Source: Congeria kusceri
Lineage: Eukaryota; Mollusca; Bivalvia; Myida; Dreissenidae
DNA: 64,000 bases
Assembly (NCBI GenBank): GCA_027627225.1
Contig: CM051027.1
Coordinates: forward strand, 85,995,951 to 86,059,950
Direction of reading: 5' to 3'
In this document: positions 3,439 to 38,785 of the stretch, piece by piece
Position numbering within the stretch: the stretch's first letter is position 1
Layout of the letters: every line of letters starts with the position of its first letter
Notes under the pieces: generated by a model
What the model was told of the DNA's origin: nothing
Seen by the model: the letters and a program-made list of their open reading frames with translations, nothing else
Databases searched by the model: none
Program-made: the position numbers and the translations under genes

Positions 3439-4357
3439 CTGTAAATTATTTACATCTGTGTACTTATGATTAGTCCATTAAAGGAGCATATTGATTGCAA
3501 CCGTATTTCCCCAAAACAGTGACATGAATTACAACAAGGCAGACATGAATTCCCACTATGCACATTTCACGGCTTATTTTCATCAATTCAAAATATTACC
3601 CCATTCCCTCCAACCAAAGTTATATGTTACCCCAGATTTTTAAAATCCACACATGAAAAAGTTTTTAAGAATTTTCAGAATTCTATGTCATAACGAAAAT
3701 GTGTTATGATTATCTGCAAAACGATCTTTCAGGACCTGCTGACATTTGTCTGTATTACTAGAATAGTTTTTCATATCATAATTAACACGCGCACACACAC
3801 ACACATGGTAGTTTCATTTGTATGCTTATTAATGAGGAAACCATTGTCCAAAACTCTAAATTTCAGTAAAACAAGTCAATAAATGCTATAAAAACATTGC
3901 CTGTGTTGATGTTCAATAAGGATATATATTTAAAGGAACTAGATATTTAAGAAACATACGCAATTAACAATTACAATATGAGCCACTAAGCCATATAATG
4001 TTTTCTCCTTTCTATTTGAATAAAGCATAAATGATTTGTTTATGTACTTTTATACATGTAATATTATATTTTAACAAATTAGCATTGTGTCATACAATGA
4101 CTGTTCAATGTTAATGTCCCAAAGGTCTATAAAATGTATATATGATTACACGTAATTACTTATTAAAAAGTTACAGACTGTATAATACAAAATTTCAAAA
4201 AGCTAGCTACTTGTGATGATATTTTTGTTAGTAATTATTTGAAATTAGAATCTACTTGAAATTAGGTTTGCAATCTGGCAATATATTGCCATACCGGATT
4301 TTTTTGCCGTACTGCAGCCCTACTGTAATTTGCATTTCACTCGTGGAGTTGCCATGG
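3439..4357. other. No gene recognised; AT-rich with a CA repeat
   Basis: This stretch lies between the SET exon at 3339-3438 and the hAT-like element. It contains a (CA)n microsatellite at about 3787-3805. I saw no exon-like open frame with splice sites and no inverted-repeat element. Confidence 0.5.
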
Positions 4358-4374
4358 TTAGCTACCACAGAGTA
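4358..4374 (+). repeat. Left target-site copy and terminal inverted repeat
   Basis: TTAGCTAC (4358-4365) is the proposed target-site copy. CACAGAGTA (4366-4374) is the left terminus, repeated in inverse orientation at 10107-10115. Sequence identity between the two ends stops after these nine bases. Confidence 0.65.
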
Positions 4375-4848: not shown

Positions 4849-7800
4849 TTATAATAACGTATAAGCTTGGTAGTCCTTGGTGAGTTCCACAGCATACACA
4901 GCACAGTCATTTTCGTAGAGCACGTTAAACCAGGCCGGATATCCAGGAACCTGCAAAAGTAAATATACAAAGTTTAGGCATCATGTTTTATGCTATGGTG
5001 ATATTATATTTCTACTAAAAGTGATTCCATAAGGCCAGTATTTCCAGTATATGATCAATGATTAAAATATGAAAACCATATAAAGGAGCAACAACATTAG
5101 CATTTATGTATCTGAAAACTACCGGTAAGTTAGACATCTTTTAGTATGTTTAATGTACTTATCAAGGGGTAAATACACATTAGTTAGTTATTTGTTTTAT
5201 ACAATTGGTGATGTTGATGTACATAAGGCCAACCTTTAAAAATAATTAGTTTGCAATTGCCTGCCCAAAGTTGATACTAATGGGTTGGTTAGTTCTATGT
5301 ACAGTTTAAAGATAGTGGACATAAATAATAGCTTCTTATTAATCTTAACCCAAATTAAAAATTACATTAAATCTTAAAAATAAACCATGTAACAACTTAT
5401 GACTATGAGATATGATGTTTCGGTTCTATCGGTAGGTAATGATAAACAAATATATTTTTCATGTTGGCCTTACTATCCCTGTAATGCTAATTAATACCTG
5501 AGATATTACAGTGCCTTTATACCAGGAAACTTTGCCATCATCTAACCATTTATGATCTATATTTTTCCCTACTAACAAATGAATGTCACTTTCTGGTGTG
5601 GGAATTTCATATGCACCCTTAACTAATTTTATAAGATTTTCTTTAAGTTCATCAACTGTTAATTGTAATCGTTGACCATTCACGGTCTTGGAGAAAGCAT
5701 ATACATTTTGATTTTCACTTTTTTGTTTAAATACATTTTTTCTGAACCGCAATTGTGCTTTCAATGCTTCATCTTTTTGTTTTGTTGAATTTAATTCAGC
5801 TACTTCTTTGTTGACCTGATCTTCAGTCTGCCACAAACCATAATACATAATGTCGTTTGTCTCCTTTTCCAGTTTTTCTACTCTTTTCTTCTCCAATAAT
5901 TCTTTTCTTTTAAATTCCTCGTGTTGTTTTTCCATCCTCTGTTGCCATATTTCTTCTTCCCTTTGTTTGAATTTTTCTCTTTCTTTTCCTACTGCCTTAC
6001 TACATTCAATAATAAGCTGTGATGCATCTTGTCTGTGTGAAAGCCACTCTGCTGTTTTATTTAAAGAAAAAGTGATGTGTGATTCTAATGCAAGTGTTGA
6101 AATGTTGGGTTTGACGGACATTATATGATCAGCATATGAAAATATTCTTTCAGGATATTTGTTGTGTTTGTCCACACTTGATGTTTCTTGCAGGTCAAGA
6201 TTTTCATGGATTCCTCCGGGCAGATGATCAACATACTGTTTTTCAATTAGCGTTACCATTGCTGGTAAAATCACAGATAAGATGGTAAAGACATGATTGT
6301 CAATGCAGGATGGTTTCAGTAACTCTTCAAGAATCTTGTCATTTTTAGTTGGAACATCTTCATAAAGTTTTAAATTTCCTGATACAAAACTTTCTATTTT
6401 TTGAACTGATTCATGTAAAAATTCTATCAGTCGCGCATACCTTTTATTCATATCACTTATAGAAATGTCTCTGTCTTCTATCACATTCCACAATGGAGTT
6501 GTAATGACTTTTGAAATGAGGCCTAAACTTTTACACCCGGCAATAAAAAACGGTTGTTTCAAATCAAACAGTACAGATTTCAACAGCTCATTTAATGTTG
6601 GAGATTTTTCAAGGTATGAAATCATATGTTCATGCAAATAAAACACATGTCCAGCATTAGTGAAGAGTATGTTAAACCTGTTTCCTTTTAATGGTTGTAG
6701 GGGCAATCCATGCATACCATTTGATTTCAAAAACCCAGAAATAAAAGTTACAAAATTAGAATGGCAGCCGTTCTTCTGATCACCTCGTTTTGCGAAAGCC
6801 TTACATGCTGTGAAAATACTTCTTAATGTTCCAGACTGTCCGCTTTTATTAAATGTAACATTATGTATTGGCACATGATCGTCAAAATGACTTTTTTCTA
6901 CTTGGAACAAACATTTACCTGATACTTCAGCCATGTGGACAAGAGTGTGCAAACCACAGAAAAAATTATTCATTTTTGCCACTGCTGCTTTTTCTTCTTC
7001 TTCCATCTTATTGTAATTGTCATAGATTTTTGGTAAAATTTCATTTCTATATTCGGCCAATATTTCATTAAATTTAGTTTCCATTGCAGCACGGTCGCTC
7101 ATTGTATTTTTTATATTTGTAAGAATTTTTTGTCCTGGAGAATTGTCGGAAGAACATGCACTGTCAAAATCAGAAAGAATGTTTTTAAATGTTTGCAATG
7201 TATCATGGCTAGATTTTGTTGCCATATCTCTGAGGCCAAGAAGTGTGTACTGCCCTTCACTGTCTCTAGTTGCAAAGGCACCCCACTTTGACCCATATTT
7301 ACTGGTCTCATCTGTGTGTAGTGTAGTGTCTAATTTATCCGGACAAGTATCAATAATTTGCTTTCGAGCCAACAGTCCTCGTTCGATAGACCAATTTTGA
7401 ATAGTACTGGCTGCTGGAAGTTTATTTGGTTTTTTCTCGACTAATTTCAAAACACTTTCAATGACAGAATTCACGTTTTGATATGACACATGATTGTCTA
7501 AAAGAGAATGCACACACATATGCAGTTTTGTATTATATGTCTTTGTTTTTTCGTCATACAGTTCAACATTTTCAATTTGTGAATCATTTTGTACAATACT
7601 TCTAAGATATTCGTTTTCTTCAAAAATTGAATCAAAATTTTCTTGTAATTTACTATATTCATTTTCAAGGTGCTTTCGTTCGTCGATAATTTGCTTGACA
7701 TCATCTTCAGTATAAATTTTTTCGTTTTTTTCATGGTCAATTTTTCTACATTTTGCGCACCAATAGGATTCCCTATTGGCTGTTCGTTTCAGTTCTTTTT

Positions 7801-8261
7801 GCTTTATTTCATTTTTTTTTTCACTTTTTTTGAAACTTTCATTTAATAAATCTCTGTCTTCAATTGTACTTAATAAGTTGCTTTCAATTATATCTTTTTC
7901 AGACTTCAAGTGATTTATTTCAGTGGCCAATTCATTCGAAACCTTATCATAAGCATAAGCCTTTAGTTCGACGTTGTCATATACGGTGAAAACTTTTTCA
8001 TGGGATGTGGACACTTCAGTTTGCTTACTTGATGGAAATTCATATTGTTTTTGTAAAAATCTTTCCAAATTATCTTTTCCCTTAACACGAGACTTACTTT
8101 TATTTAAATGTTGGAATTTCTTTAAAATTCGTTCCAGCTGAACTATAATTGTTGTCAGACAACAGTTATTGTTTGTCATTGGGTGTAGAAACTTGGCAGT
8201 TTCAAGTAAGCCATTATTCTTTATTTTACAAACTATTTGGTCATTTGTCAAATCCATGGCT
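4849..8261 (-). CDS. hAT-like transposase with C-terminal Spindlin-type Tudor domain, 953 aa, two coding exons
   Basis: Exon 1 runs 8261-5498 (TTTTCAG acceptor, then ATG at 8257-8255; donor CAG|GTATTA) and exon 2 runs 4950-4849 (TTGCAG acceptor, stop TAA). The junction is phase 0. I chose ATG 8257 because it follows a strong acceptor; the 57 open codons before it are probably intron. Residues 105-230 are coiled-coil-like with a CAKC pair at 167-170. Residues 240-450 look like an RNase H-fold core: D316 in HTDETS, D388 in MSDRAA and C434-x2-H437. The third acidic residue is not assigned. Residues 680-735 hold DHLPGG and PERIFS, resembling the hAT dimerisation region. Residues 740-850 are a charged coiled coil. 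Residues 895-953 match Spindlin repeat II by eye: VGKNIDHKW, WYKGTVISQVP, LYEND, VY, L.KDY. Aromatics W904, W912/Y913, Y932 and Y939 fall at the methyl-lysine cage positions of SPIN1 as I recall them. The ORF is unbroken. Expected roles are DNA transposition in the nucleus with possible reading of histone H3 methylation; the second role is inference. Confidence 0.87.
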
Positions 8262-8839: not shown

Positions 8840-9379
8840 TTACATAGAAAAAACGTAAATTTCGTCGGAACTAGAATCTTGCACATTAATTTCAATTTTT
8901 GATTTCTTAAAACAAATCTCTGTGCTACATGAACCTAATGAAAAGGTGGATGGGCTAGTTGCCTTGGTGCATTTGGAAATGATTGATGGTGGTTTTGACT
9001 GGAGTTCAGTTGGGGGGACACACCACGTTGAACTTTGAGACCATATAGGTTCTATCCAACAAGGATCTTGTGCCTGTTGGAAAGAAGGTTGCTCTGTTGC
9101 ATTTCCATTTTCATCAAAAGACACAACATTTTTACTTTGTGTTTCCAGAAGGCTTTTCTCAAGATTATAATCAACTGAAATTTCTGCTGGTAAACTGGTC
9201 AAAAAACGAAATAATAAACCCAAGCTTGCTGAATGAAAAACCAATCGATTTGAATTTGAAAAGAAGTCAAACTCAGGCTTGTTGAAATAACTAAAATCAG
9301 TGTAACTAAGCAAATCAGAAGCCCAAATGCAGTGCATGTAATTTATTAAACCATCTGGTGTAAATATTGACCGTGCCAT
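8840..9379 (-). CDS. Unrecognised 179-aa ORF inside the hAT-like element
   Basis: An open frame starts at ATG 9379-9377, just after an acceptor-like GTATTTTAG on the minus strand, and ends with TAA at 8840-8842. The product is Ser/Thr-rich with a hydrophobic N-terminal third, a Cys/Trp-bearing middle (CWIEPIW, STWCVPP) and an acidic tail (DSSSDE). I do not recognise a domain. It lies upstream of, and co-directional with, the transposase-like gene, so it could be an accessory protein of the element or part of a 5' exon of that gene. No canonical donor linking the two was obvious. Coding status is moderate because the length is not decisive. Confidence 0.42.
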   Translation of the reverse strand: MARSIFTPDGLINYMHCIWASDLLSYTDFSYFNKPEFDFFSNSNRLVFHSASLGLLFRFLTSLPAEISVDYNLEKSLLETQSKNVVSFDENGNATEQPSFQQAQDPCWIEPIWSQSSTWCVPPTELQSKPPSIISKCTKATSPSTFSLGSCSTEICFKKSKIEINVQDSSSDEIYVFSM

Positions 9380-10106
9380 TATGGATGTATCTAAAATACA
9401 ATAAAAAATCATACTTTTCATTTCAAACATTCATTTCTCCGTGCCATTTCGATCAGATTTTAATGTTAAGTCACGAAATTTGCTAGTGTTTCGTTTGATT
9501 TGTTTACTTCCGGTTAATATATTTCGGACACAATACATTCGGACAGAAATCATCAAGGTCGAAAATGAGGTTGCGCATTTTTATGCGCAGCAGACGACAA
9601 TTTTACAACGTGTTATAATGTGAAGTAAAATGATCATATTCCATGATTAAAAAATAAAATCGTTGCAACCACTTAACATATGGGATATATGCATGTTTTT
9701 TCCCTCACCAGATAGCTTAAAACTCGCTTAAAAAAAGCAGTTAACTATGTTTTCCAGAAAAAACACTCCGAACAGGTGCGCAAGGCTGTTTTAAGTTTCG
9801 TACTTTCCGCCCAAATCCCGGGATTCCGCAGAATACGTCATCAGCGAGATTTTAAACATGTGACCCTGTTGGCCAAAATGGCATCCGACAATGCGGAAGT
9901 AAAAAAAAATCGGTTAAAGTCAAGTCCGATTAAAAAAAATTTACACGCTTAAATGCAATAATTTCAACAATTAGTCGCTGAATAATTATTTTTTTCACAT
10001 AAAATGCGTTATATATTAACTTATTCATGTTTGTAGTGTTAAAATTGTAACTTAAACAAACCATGGTTTATAACGGAAGTAGAAGGGGAGGTAACAAATC
10101 GAGTAC

Positions 10107-10123
10107 TACTCTGTGGTAGCTAC
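10107..10123 (-). repeat. Right terminal inverted repeat and target-site copy
   Basis: TACTCTGTG (10107-10115) is the inverse of the left terminus and is followed by GTAGCTAC (10116-10123), the second target-site copy. With the following CATGG it is part of the palindromic stretch around the insertion site. Confidence 0.65.
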
Positions 10124-11362
10124 CATGGTTGCTGGCAAAGAGTATTTTAATAATGTCATTTCCATTGAACATGTTTAACATTGCTTCTGTTGTGAAAACA
10201 ATGAAATGTGGTCACATGTCAATTGCATTGCAGTAATATTCAAAATTTGTTTCTGGTCAAATTTTGCATTTAATGACTTGTAATACGTTTAATATTCAGA
10301 AGAAACACAAGTATGCCTATATCAAATGTTTGTTTTGATGCAATATTGATATTGTTCACTCAAATAAAAAAAATAATGCGACACTACGGTCAATTTTGGA
10401 AGAACAACATTTTACACATGCATAAGTGAAAGGTTACAAACTAGAACAAACATGCGCAGGCGTCATCTTCAATGGACAATTAAGAACTCAATGACATATC
10501 AATGGGTTTGAATGTTTTTAATTATTGTTTCAAGTGGTTACAATTGAACCGTTGATCATTACTTTGCCCTAAAAAACTATTGTCCAGTTTAATAGCTGAC
10601 AAATTTTGCTGTCCGGACCGAGGGAAAATTTGGAGGGCTCGGTCCGTCACTTACTGTCGAAGACTGACATTAGCCTGTGATATGCTCCTTCATTACGGTA
10701 AACCAAATTGGCACGACATTTTGAACTACAAGCTTAAAAAACTTACTCTTTGTTCAGCATTGTTGTTTATGACTGCCTTTACCTGAAAATATAATTAATG
10801 TCCTTAATTTCAACAGATCATTAAAAAAAACACAAATGGTCGTGGACTTTCGCATTCGAGGCGCCGCCTATGTGTCATAATGTTAACCATATGCAGTTTG
10901 AAGGCCTTTTTAAGGCTTTTATCGGTTATTTGCGGCCCTTAAAATAATATGAGATGATAGAACACAGACTGATCTTGCCATTAAACGTATTACTTTTTTA
11001 ATGGACACTCAATAATCTACATTGTTTTCTTCACAAATACATCGTTTACTGAAGGTCGCTAAACGTTTACACCGGTTCAGAATGAGGCTCCATTTGGAAT
11101 CACCTTGCGATATGACGTTTTACTCAGTTCTTTCGGGAAATACGCGTTTTTCGTCATCATTTTAAGTTTACAAAAGGATGCAGCTGCATAATGAGCGAAA
11201 CCATGCCGTAAGAATTTTTTATTATTTTCCCATGATTTGCAGTCAAAGTTCGACATACTTTAATGATGCACCAGTTAATAAATATGTAAGCGCGTATTCG
11301 CGTTAGCTTTGCTGTATTCTTTTGGGATTTACGACTGAAACAGTGAAAAAGCAAACATTAAA
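10124..11362. other. No gene recognised between the hAT-like element and the Tudor gene
   Basis: This 1.2 kb stretch contains a hairpin at about 10616-10656 (GGACCGAG against CTCGGTCC). I searched it by eye for upstream exons of the following gene (RNase H-like core motifs, CxxH, GNRFNILF) and found none. It may hold that gene's promoter. Confidence 0.5.
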
Positions 11363-13101
11363 ATGCAAGCGCTTTTTAGCGCCAGCGGTTTTAAAGCAGT
11401 CATAGAAGATTGGCACCACAATGACATTGTCGCAACATATCTAAAAGTAATTCTACCAGCACTGGCTGAGTGTTCAAATAAGCTTTATGCGGATCACCTA
11501 CCTGGAGGGAAATGGACAGGGGCTACAGATGAAATGAGGAAAAGGGCCAAGTCCGCTCAGAAGAACAACAAGTTTGCAGAATCTGTGTTTGGGTACCTGG
11601 ACAATTTACTCCACAAGAAACCCAATATCAGTGTTCTAGCTTCAGAAGCATATATAATGTTTACTTCAAACAAAACCAGCAAATGGATTGAGAGTAAATC
11701 TGAGGAAGAAAAACAAATTCTTGTACACGAGGCCATGAGAGACAGTTTTCATGTGAAAGAACAATTCAAAAAAAGGCATACTGAAATTCAGAAAAAGATA
11801 CGAGACAGGATGATAGAACGAGCAAAATTGGCTGCTGACAAAGAAGCACGGAGATTGCAGAAACTGACAAACTTTACAGATGATATTATCTATTTCGGTC
11901 TGTGGCAAACAGAATCAGAAGTTGACAGTGCTCTTATTAGAATCTCAAACAAAACTGAACAAATAAAAGCATTAAAATCACAATTAAACTTCCGGCGTTT
12001 TGTATTACAACAAAGTCCAGACAACCTGAAAGACGTGTACAAATTCTCCATAAATGAAGAAGGGAAAAATAGGAAATTGGACGTTGAGGAACTAATATGT
12101 TTCGCCAAAAAGTTTATTCAGCATGCCCATACATTGGATGCCAGCAAGGAGAAAGACACACGAAAATGCTTGTTAACGGGTAAATGCGTTGAGCATAAAT
12201 TTGTCTCAAACGGAAAAGAAGCATGGTGGAAGGGTAGAGTGATATCACAGGTAAAATAGGAGGCAAACTTACAACTAACATGATATTATTAAATGCATGC
12301 CTGTGGCTTATATGGAAATATCAGTGATTTAAAACTGGTAATTCACTGTTTCAAACAGTGAAAAATATCAGTGGAAATTATCAATAATTTTCACTGTTTT
12401 GTTGTGAAATGACGTCGTTTTTTAACGTCATGACGTTATTATTCCTGCGAAATTCTCCAATTTAAACCTTTTAAAATGTAAACAAACGGTGGATAAATCA
12501 TTAAATAAAAAAAATTAATTGATTTTGTATGATTATTGATTTTAATTCACTCTTGATCATAGAAAATAAAAATTTTCACTTGTGGCTGCGCCACTCGTGA
12601 AAATATTAATATCTCTGATCACTCGTGAGTTAAAATTGATTATTTACCGAAACCAACAAATATCCTCTATATGCTGTATTGTTTATGAATCTATATTTTG
12701 TGTGACATTATTTTATTATCATACACACCTTATGATATAAAATATCTTAGCATTTTACATAACGTATATTCATATTTTAATAGTATTGTTGTGTCTTGTG
12801 GTGCATTCAATTTTACTTACAATTACTAACATTCACTAACAAATGTTCAAAGAACTTATTTTACATAGAAAAAATAAGAACACATGTTTTAATTTAGTTA
12901 TATTAATGGTAAAACTACCCATTGAGTCTATTCCATAGTGTGATTGACTTAAATTAAACGTCCTTAACACAGCCATTTCGTTTTCAGGTCCCAGGCTACC
13001 CAGAGTGGCACAATATCATGTACCAAAACGACAGCGCCGTTTACTGGTACCAGCTTCTAAAGGATTATGAGAAAGGGGATCTGAGGTTGCTTGTACAATA
13101 A
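11363..13101 (+). CDS. Truncated relative of the Tudor-fused transposase, 333 aa, two exons
   Basis: Exon 1 is 11363-12250 and exon 2 is 12988-13101. The donor is CAG|GTAAAA, the acceptor TTTTCAG|GTC, phase 0, with the stop TAA overlapped by AATAAA and a second AATAAA at 13107-13112. The product aligns with the last third of the protein at 4849-8261: DHLPGG (residues 44-49), KNNKFAESVFGYLD, KPNIS, SNKTSKW, a charged coiled coil, GLWQTE, and a C-terminal Tudor repeat (VEHKF, WWKGRVISQVPGYPEW, MYQND, VYWYQLLKDYEKGDL). The last part is strikingly close to SPIN1 repeat II. F280, W289, Y308 and Y315 occupy its aromatic-cage positions. The intron splits the Tudor domain after VISQ exactly as in the other gene, so the copy arose by DNA duplication and not retrotransposition. 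No catalytic core is present. ATG 11363 sits where homology begins; an acceptor-like CTTTTTAG lies at 11370-11377, so upstream exons remain possible. Confidence 0.85.
12311..12650. repeat. Foldback repeat in the intron of the truncated Tudor gene
   Basis: TTTCACTTGTGGCTGCGCCACTCGTGAAA-type dyads (about 12573-12604) and matching TCACTGTTT/AAACAGTGA arms near 12344-12362 give a MITE-like palindromic stretch. It accounts for much of the intron. Confidence 0.45.
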
Positions 13102-14175
13102 AAGTAAATAAAATTGTTATGGAAGTTAATAATTTTGTTCAAGATATGCTCAACAGTTCGGTTCTTGATTACTTTATGATTGTGATATTTTTGACACATA
13201 CATTTCCGTATTTTTTAATTTTCAAAACCCTCTAACTTTGTCAAAAGTCAACAGATTTTAATAAAATAAAAACCATAGGTTATGTCTTTTTCAGAGCTTT
13301 CCAACGATATATATAACTCTATACCTGGATGGAAATCATTTTTTGGTCTAACATCATTATTATTGGTATGATGACGATGATGAGGAGGAGAAGGAGGAGG
13401 ATGAAATGCAAATTGGACCCTTTCAAAAAAAAAAAAAAAAAAAAAATTACGCAACGCTTTCCGTAGCCCAAGGCAGCCATTCTTCTTAATCTTAACCGCC
13501 AACACTGGCGAACCGTAGTCTATACACTCTAGGACCGAGTAACCATTTTGCCGCCAATTTGCCGAATCGGTACGTATGGAGCCGAGTAGTTACGAATGAC
13601 CACAGAGCGGAAATTGAAAAATATATTCTCGCTAACAGACCGTTAAAAATCGGAAAAAAATCAATATAAATCATGTTTTACAATTTATTTATGAAGTAGA
13701 CAGTCAAAAATACAAACATATTTCCATTTTCATCATTTATTTAATCTCTAACCAATGTCTGCCTAAATCCGTTAGGGTATATGTCGTCATATATATAAAG
13801 GCTTTTTTGGGGGTCACGTAATTTCAGGGGAAAAAAGGAATATTGAGAAATTCATGCAATTATGAATTGAGAAAGACACATAGAAGTATATTAAATCGGA
13901 ACTGAAGCAAAAAATCGAAGGACAAACTAAGTCTGCGGACCTAAATATTAGGCAGACCAAATCTTGTCTGCCTAAGTCACGAGTCTGCTTAAGTCTTAAA
14001 AATATATACTTCATGTCTGCCTAAAGATTATGACATATATATATATATATATATATGTTATTATATATATGTTTTTTTTTGTTATTGGACAAATTATAAA
14101 TGAATCAAACTTGTAACAGTGTGTTTTATATTTTAAAGGAGCATACCGACGGTATTTCGCATGCATATAAACATA
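13102..14175. repeat. Simple repeats downstream of the Tudor gene; no further gene
   Basis: The stretch holds a GA/GAT-rich tract at 13368-13402 and a poly(A) run at about 13426-13447, possibly a retroposon tail. An (AT)n microsatellite lies at about 14036-14060. No gene is supported. Confidence 0.6.
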
Positions 14176-37416: not shown

Positions 37417-38785
37417 AAGCTCACCTGAGCACGAAGTGCTGTGTGACCTACTGGTATAGGGGACCTCTCAGGCGACGTCCGGCGTCTATCGTCCGTCATT
37501 AATGTGCCATCAACAATTTGGACCGTTATCGCGATAAAGACTACATTTTTTATTGAATCTTGACCTAACTTGCACAGTTTGTGTAAGACCATAAAATCTC
37601 GGATGGGATTGATATTGGGTCAGATCACACCAGTAACACCAGAGTTATTGCCCCTTTTTCATGCAAAAAAAGTACATAAGTGCCCTTTCCAACATATAAA
37701 CATTATTTTCCATCCAATCTTAACCAAACTTTCACAGTTTGTGTATGACCATCAGATCTCAGCAGACATCAAAAATGGGCCAGATCTTTTTCAAACACTA
37801 GAGTTATAGCCCTTTGTTTATTAAAAAAATATTCGAAAATGGACATTATTCAGGATAGAGAGACATTTTTCATCCAATCTTCACCAATCTTGCACAGTTT
37901 GTCTATGACCATAAGATTAAAGGTGAAGTCGAATATAAGCAAGATTGGACCAGAAACACCAGAGTTATTGCCCTTTGTTTGTCCATTTTTGCATATTTTT
38001 TTCACATTTTTCAGGATGGAGACTGCATTTTTCATCCTATCTTCACCAATCGTGTACAGTTTGTCTATGAACGTAAGACTACAAGTGAAGTCGAATATAA
38101 GCATGATTTGGCCAGAAACACCAGAGTTATTGCCCCTTGTGTTTGGAAAAAAACATCAACAAGTTATCAATAATTGGCTTGCACACATGATTTTTCATTC
38201 AATGTTGACCATACTTACACAGTTTGCGCATGACCATCAAAATTGTTTGATAAAATTTGATTTCCAATAGTTCCAAGACTTGCATGCAGTTATTTGTAAA
38301 TGCAACTTCGATGTCTTCAGTGTCTGCATTAACATCATTTATCATCATTGGAAAGAAAATTAATGCATTAACATCATTTATTATCATTGGAAAGAAAATT
38401 ATCAAAGAAAAAGCAAAACTGTACATTATAACATAGCCATCCCAATTATCGCATTGCAACTAGTTTTCAAAAACTGTTTGCGAAAAAGACATCAAAACTT
38501 ACTGTTTGTGCATTTTCCAGAATTGTCAATGACTTAATGAAAAAGGGTCAGGTAAGAATATCAAGAAAAATGATTTGAGAAGCATTAGCAAAAAAACGAA
38601 CATCCACTACCCATCTCATACTTTAGTTAGCCCATTGCACTAGCCGATGTTTTACAACAAAATTGATCCTACCTCCTCTGTGTATTGTTCAGATACCTTA
38701 ATTTTCAAACCTGTCACAACAGTATGGTCTTCATCTGTACCAGTTCTCAGGTGAGCGCTTTGGGCCATCATGGCCCTCTTGTTTT
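37417..38785 (+). repeat. Satellite-bearing element related to 17579-19050
   Basis: It starts AGCTCACCTGAGCACGAAGTG and ends GGGCCATCATGGCCCTCTTG. The unit and 3' flank (ATTATCGCATTGCAACTAG) are shared with 17579-19050. An internal 50 bp direct duplication (GCATTAACATCATTTAT) is present at 38323-38395. The 143-codon frame here is repeat-derived. Confidence 0.75.

Follow-up and report, generated by a model that had tools for sequence, protein, structure and literature searches.

Chromatin readers occur on the integrases of retroelements (chromoviruses), and some of them steer insertion. Chromodomains are described on Gypsy integrases, and the Tudor domain of the Ectocarpus element Gypsy-10_Ec32 was, to its authors' knowledge, the first in any transposable element (PMC12477816). 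In the RAG1/2 recombinase, the PHD finger of RAG2 recruits the enzyme to chromatin carrying histone H3 trimethylated at lysine 4 (H3K4me3) and restrains transposition until the histone tail displaces it (PMC11844651). RAG2 is the nearest functional parallel to the system described here, a DNA transposon from the bivalve Congeria kusceri whose transposase ends in a Spindlin-type Tudor domain. The element lies in a 64,000-nucleotide stretch of contig CM051027.1 (positions 85,995,951 to 86,059,950), hereafter the window; its features are collected in Table 1.

Spindlin-type Tudor domain of the transposase

The transposase is encoded on the minus strand by two exons, with an ATG at 8257, a GT-AG intron and a stop in exon 2, giving the 953-residue product originally predicted at this locus. 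The intron AG acceptor is kept in all 18 fetched copies that have exon 2. The structure model of the window protein is mostly helical at residues 5 to 69, contains the predicted coiled coil (residues ~97 to 225) and, after the catalytic core, presents a long helix (745 to 806), a small helix/strand module (812 to 882) and the C-terminal Tudor.

A search with the Spin/Ssty profile PF02513 matched residues 896 to 943 at 42.1 bits (cut-off 25; E 7.5e-11), and a phmmer comparison with PDB sequences retrieved SPIN1 with an E value of ~5e-14. With the window protein alone, the best match in SPIN3 is repeat II, and the family profile matches Spindlin-3 at an E value of 2.6e-29, with the second Tudor best. 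In the second Tudor of SPIN1, K4me3 is held by F141, W151, Y170, and Y177, whereas H3A1 is contacted by D189 and H3R2 by D184 (PMC7878818). The cage equivalents in the window protein are W904, Y913, Y932, and Y939, all aromatic as predicted, and the equivalent of D184 is D946.

The domain was surveyed in 208 proteins (207 homologs and the window protein) with a profile built from 32 of them. At least part of it was found in 141 proteins, and 112 have all six columns. In these 112 complete domains, cage positions 1 to 3 are aromatic in 108, 109, and 112, respectively; the D184 equivalent is Asp in every one, and the D189 equivalent is Asp or Glu in 102. That a mobile family has conserved the pocket so strongly suggests that the domain binds a ligand. 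The residues of an H3K4me3 reader, namely, an aromatic cage and acidic residues for H3 A1 and R2, are thus present by alignment, except that the window copy lacks the last acidic residue. Close to the domain's end, a single-base deletion makes this copy read QAYTLL and a stop, while all 17 other fetched exon-2 copies read QAGDVII, so that its last strand and D189 equivalent are lost. The window copy is slightly broken; intact copies exist.

Structure prediction was carried out, with 35 relatives, for P0020, a 772-residue “SPIN3-like protein” of Mya arenaria. The model (pLDDT [predicted local distance difference test], 86.6) shows five strands in residues 714 to 769. Foldseek with this model retrieved Hermes at ranks 1 to 12 and then mostly Spindlin chains (E 1e-3 to 7e-3; probability, 1.00). 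The best Spindlin superpositions, which include the H3K4me3 complex 4mzg, are at 1.4 to 1.5 Å over 62 to 64 columns with ~40% identity, and other rows are at 1.6 to 5.8 Å. Pfam, PDB sequence matches and structure prediction thus all show that the proposed joining of a hAT-like transposase to a Spin-type Tudor is real.

Ends, target duplications and copies of the element

The gene is carried by a DNA transposon of 5,764 bp with 16-bp terminal inverted repeats (TIRs) and 7-bp target site duplications (TSDs) that has spread recently. The inverted repeat TAGCTACCACAGAGTA is perfect over 16 bp, and its exact pattern occurs 53 times in the 1.55-Gb genome (reversed control, 0). The TIR call by shuffles was borderline (score of 39 versus a maximum of 37 in 200) and was settled by the genome copies; the extra CCATGG in the TIR alignment is the TSD.

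When 50 of 1,224 first-look candidates were scored, 18 copies, the window's included, were found to span all 920 exon-1 residues at 96 to 100% identity. Some genome copies have internal stops. Twenty copies were fetched with their flanks, among them that of the window itself (L009). Of the 19 others, 15 have similarity that starts and stops at most 4 nt from window positions 4359 and 10122, and 17 contain exon 2. Five fetched copies have one side without a recognizable TIR (L015, L018, L021, L023, and L024). The remaining 15 have both TIRs, and 14 of these are bounded by perfect 7-bp direct repeats, which amount to 12 different sequences; L016 has both TIRs and no TSD, and a site common to L019, L020, and L022 was counted once. 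The TIRs, TSDs and dispersed copies are those of a TIR DNA transposon.

The three copies at the common site lie on contigs C10, C62, and C38, one of them in the opposite orientation, which indicates either a duplication of the surrounding host DNA later than the insertion or that the contigs are alternative haplotypes. L015 and L018, both on contig C3, are without the Tudor exon and 99.9% alike over 8 kb, as a duplicated truncated copy.

TABLE 1 Features of the transposon and of the neighboring relic in the window
Feature	Positions	Strand	Details
Left TSD CCATGGT	4352..4358	.	Identical 7-mer adjoins both TIRs
TIR TAGCTACCACAGAGTA, end nearest Tudor exon	4359..4374	+	Genome copies and exact-pattern count
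Subterminal motif CTTTCTAATGATGTATAA	4404..4421	-	46-63 nt from tip; chosen by eye
Exon 2	4849..4950	-	Second half of Spin/Ssty Tudor; end altered by one-base deletion in window copy
Spin/Ssty domain	4882..5572	-	Residues 896-943, intron-split; PF02513 E 7.5e-11
Intron	4951..5497	-	GT-AG, phase 0
Exon 1	5498..8257	-	920 aa: N-terminal helical region, coiled coil, transposase core, first Tudor half
Hermes-like core	6035..7507	-	Residues 251-741 (D316, D388, C434/H437, E703)
Predicted long coiled coil	7583..7969	-	Residues 97-225 (structure model)
196-aa open reading frame inside element	8840..9430	-	Upstream of transposase
TIR, end upstream of transposase gene	10107..10122	-	Pairs with 4359..4374
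Right TSD CCATGGT	10123..10129	.	Identical 7-mer adjoins both TIRs
Relic of second, related element, exon 1 end	11339..12259	+	37% identical
Relic Spin exon	12988..13101	+	62% identical to exon 2 over 29 residues; intron position the same

Relation of the core to hAT transposases

The predicted RNase H-like core motifs are all present, and five of their residues, in HTDETS (D316), MSDRAA (D388), CGLH (C434/H437), and PERIFS (E703), do not vary among 46 aligned sequences (the window protein and 45 relatives). In the predicted structure, the RNase H-like core has the Hermes topology with D, D, and E, as expected of a hAT transposase. The same is true of the CxxH motif, which is common to the hAT, P, MuDR, Kolobok, and Dada superfamilies (PMC9587614).

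The hAT dimerization-like region proposed around PERIFS stands as a motif and not as a profile match. PF05699/IPR008906 gave no match for the window protein (E 1) or the 45 relatives (E 0.01), and PF05699 gave none for 20 relatives at E 1, among 25 of 34 families listed. The Hermes structural alignment does span the hAT-domain region of the fold. At the same thresholds, neither a BED zinc finger nor any other Pfam transposase model was matched by the window protein or, among the families listed, by the two sets of relatives.

The TSDs are of 7 bp in 14 of 15 copies, while the rule given for hAT elements is 8 bp (PMC4763223). This rule may not be strict, because an example query of Repbase seeks hAT families with a 7-bp TSD (PMC4455052). 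Kolobok elements, which have a 4-bp TTAA duplication (PMC9587614), are excluded by the 7-bp duplications of varied sequence. The “hAT” label thus holds for the fold and the catalytic motifs and does not hold for TSD length, the Pfam hAT domain or the BED finger. Tips of hAT elements often begin with TAG or CAG. The P transposase is a weaker fold match than Hermes. Galileo, a member of the P superfamily, has 7-bp TSDs, and the TSD length found here is a hint toward that superfamily.

Distribution and age of the fusion

The fusion is old. In the same genome, two single-exon open reading frames, one of 1021 aa (39% identity to the window protein) and one of 1012 aa (35%), run from the core through a Spin domain (E of about 1e-28 with a profile built in this analysis), so that the fusion is independent of the splice. 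Judged by sequence comparison, it is a trait of a large animal transposon family and not of a one-off gene, a finding broader than the original prediction. Named relatives come from the bivalves Mya, Mercenaria, Dreissena, Pecten, Pinctada, and Ruditapes, the snail Littorina and the sponge Dysidea; most homolog matches are without a named source.

In Pfam (E 0.01), 20 of the 45 relatives match Spin-Ssty and 3 match a PTM/DIR17 Tudor. Among 120 C termini listed, the complete ones end, by eye, in a Spin-type Tudor or in a second flavor, many of the nearest relatives stop at the conserved junction or turn unrelated just past it, and others are fragments. In a FastTree phylogeny of 95 cores, from which the reader was excluded, reader flavor, called with a simple pattern, switches 5 times, versus a mean of 31 and a minimum of 23 in 100 shuffles. 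This indicates that the reader mostly descended with the core.

Four relatives (P0049, P0061, P0081, and P0103) start with hydrophobic residues, after which comes a 2A-like motif (GDVExNPGP); this suggests ribosome skipping at the N terminus of a DNA transposase. A further protein, P0024, is labeled as from a Sedimenticola (bacterial) metagenome-assembled genome and is 49% identical to the transposase; it is probably host DNA in a symbiont bin.

Possible role of the reader

The best joint explanation, to which we give somewhat better than even chances, is that a Hermes-like cut-and-paste transposase carries a single Tudor that reads H3K4me3 and biases insertion. As part of this explanation, the element would be autonomous and of the cut-and-paste type. 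The core would excise the element and join it to target DNA, while the Tudor would bind the K4-methylated N terminus of H3 through A1, R2, and K4me3, as SPIN1 repeat II does. The bound Tudor could then hold the integration complex on marked chromatin, and tethering to H3K4me3 nucleosomes would bias the choice of insertion site. The reader would thus probably serve chromatin targeting.

Several observations weigh against this explanation. The window protein alone scores higher with SPIN1 repeat I (24.4 bits) than with repeat II (21.8 bits), and the predicted likeness to repeat II is borne out by the family profile and by the acidic residues of intact copies. The fourth cage position is aromatic in 56 of the 112 complete domains and is not F, W, or Y in the other 56, and the four aromatics occur together in only 49; the specificity may therefore differ between branches. 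In the window copy, the end of the reader is itself damaged. The second flavor scores, for the most part weakly, as a PTM/DIR17 Tudor and not as Spin; one group of 20 members gave such a Pfam match in 13 (best E 9e-6), with a score below the Pfam cut-off for the one member listed. Finally, the flanks of 12 insertion sites do not differ in observed/expected CpG from 20 random 1.6-kb stretches of 11 large contigs (medians, 0.80 versus 0.91; p 0.83), nor does their GC content differ (p 0.76). This null result neither supports nor excludes targeting, since CpG is a poor proxy for H3K4me3. An earlier impression of CpG-rich flanks (0.87 versus 0.62 for the window) was lost against the random control. 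As regards the pocket itself, family members often have a nonaromatic residue such as C or L as the fourth cage residue, and the Tudor of one branch scores as PTM/DIR17-like, so that ligands may differ.

The Tudor might instead be mainly a switch that folds back and blocks target DNA until an H3K4me3 tail displaces it, by analogy with the RAG2 PHD finger, whose suppression of transposition is relieved by a long H3K4me3 peptide (PMC11844651). Because that finger both recruits and restrains, a switch role is a main rival, and the C-terminal position of the Tudor, after the long helix and the helix/strand module, is in keeping with it; the stretch before the Tudor is, however, of low confidence in the model (residues 698 to 704 of P0020), and a switch as the main role appears rather unlikely. 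We hold it to be similarly doubtful that the Tudor reads another ligand (H4K20me3, methyl-arginine, a nonhistone target or its own transposase) or that its role is limited to helping the protein fold or dimerize. The variable fourth cage position speaks for this, as does the binding of further methyl-lysines by SPIN1 (e.g., H4K20me3 in complex 5y5w), but the two acidic residues retained in 112 and 102 of the 112 domains are those whose SPIN1 equivalents contact H3 R2 and A1.

Less probable still is an anti-silencing role, in which the transposase Tudor would compete with host spindlin at young, methylation-marked copies. In mice, young LINE1 copies are marked by SPIN1, and methylation directed by PIWI-interacting RNA requires SPOCD1, a partner of SPIN1 (PMC11499256). 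However, a low-abundance enzyme would be a poor competitor, the transposon family is also found in a sponge, and spindlin is not known to be used in this way in molluscs, no search having been made for it. There is next to no chance that the protein comes from a host gene that was domesticated or from two neighbors spliced together by accident. The second half of the reader does occupy a separate exon, whose splice is predicted from the sequence, but this origin is ruled out by the 18 near-identical full-length exon-1 copies with their TIRs and TSDs, by the retention of exon 2 in 17 of the 19 other fetched copies and by the single-exon fusions of 1021 and 1012 aa.

Beyond the preferred explanation of a transposase guided by an H3K4me3-reading Tudor, we tentatively suggest, as a possibility with rather less than even chances, that these elements form a separate lineage of animal DNA transposons, perhaps a superfamily of their own beside hAT, with a built-in reader of the H3 N terminus and K4me3 that makes them insert preferentially at active promoters. 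Their single-repeat reader could even be kin to the unit from which three-repeat host spindlins are built, or the reverse.

Related families and other features of the locus

Related families are present in the same genome. L030 (~52% identical) has the ends TAGC...GCTA and, by eye, the duplication catgggg, and its sister L029 has a changed left tip, with no 7-bp duplication visible by eye. L031 and L032 (~37% identical) are 7.5-kb elements with the ends TAACAA...TTGTTA; visual inspection of their flanks gave caattag and gtgtggg as the duplications. A motif like CTTTCCAAYGATGTATA occurs in all three families at the same offset, 46 to 63 nt from the tip nearest the Tudor exon, and may be a putative transposase binding site; at up to 3 mismatches, 0.2 matches are expected per base-shuffled 64-kb window, and an unrelated 3-mismatch match lies at 38355.

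The relic of a second element (11339 to 13101, plus strand) is located 1.2 kb from the main element in the opposite orientation. Its 5′ part is gone, and a subterminal-like motif is found at 13297 (3 mismatches).

The 196-aa open reading frame upstream of the transposase has no homolog at E 0.001 (46 candidates) and no Pfam match, and it was not found in L029 to L032 (best E 6). Relative to it, the 19 other copies show 2 stop changes and 3 indel codons, and L024 lacks 41 of its codons. The substitutions among copies are too few for a selection estimate, the copies being too alike for selection on this frame to be shown. It may encode an accessory protein or be due to chance.

Comparison with known systems

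Among the matches listed in open-access literature, titles and the starts of abstracts mentioned no DNA transposase that carries a Spin or Tudor domain, Repbase entries being outside the search, and a spindlin-type methyl-lysine reader fused to a transposase of the cut-and-paste type is thus without precedent in the literature searched. The fusion explains the spindlin labels assigned by annotation pipelines, such as the “SPIN3-like protein” of Mya. If the domain reads H3K4me3, molluscs and a sponge would possess a natural transposase that brings its own chromatin targeting; the many young copies would allow a direct test of site choice, and the enzyme could become a tool to steer gene insertion.

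The transposase resembles Hermes and other hAT enzymes (PDB 6dwz/4d1q) in its RNase H core with a helical insertion, in the order D, D, CxxH, E and in the short TIR of its element. It differs from them in the 7-bp rather than 8-bp duplication, in that no Pfam hAT domain or BED finger was found, and in the addition of N-terminal helices, a long coiled coil and the C-terminal Spin Tudor. The reader shares with SPIN1 repeat II the Spin/Ssty domain, five strands (P0020 model), an aromatic pocket and, in intact copies, both acidic residues. In contrast to the three tandem repeats of Spindlin, the window protein contains a single PF02513 stretch, and this repeat is embedded in a transposase.

Among mobile elements, Ginger1 likewise joins a DNA transposase to a C-terminal domain of the chromatin-reader type, but its transposase is Gypsy integrase-like and its domain is a PHD finger (Ginger1-9_HM, among the table rows listed; PMC2836005). 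Gypsy-10_Ec32 shares the C-terminal Tudor, whereas it is a long terminal repeat retroelement of a brown alga, with no DNA transposase (PMC12477816). RAG1/2, which is Transib-like, is likewise a DDE recombinase that an H3K4me3 reader both guides and regulates; there, however, the reader is a zinc finger on a partner protein, the system is domesticated, and the PHD finger is described as absent from ProtoRAG (PMC11844651, PMC9885083).
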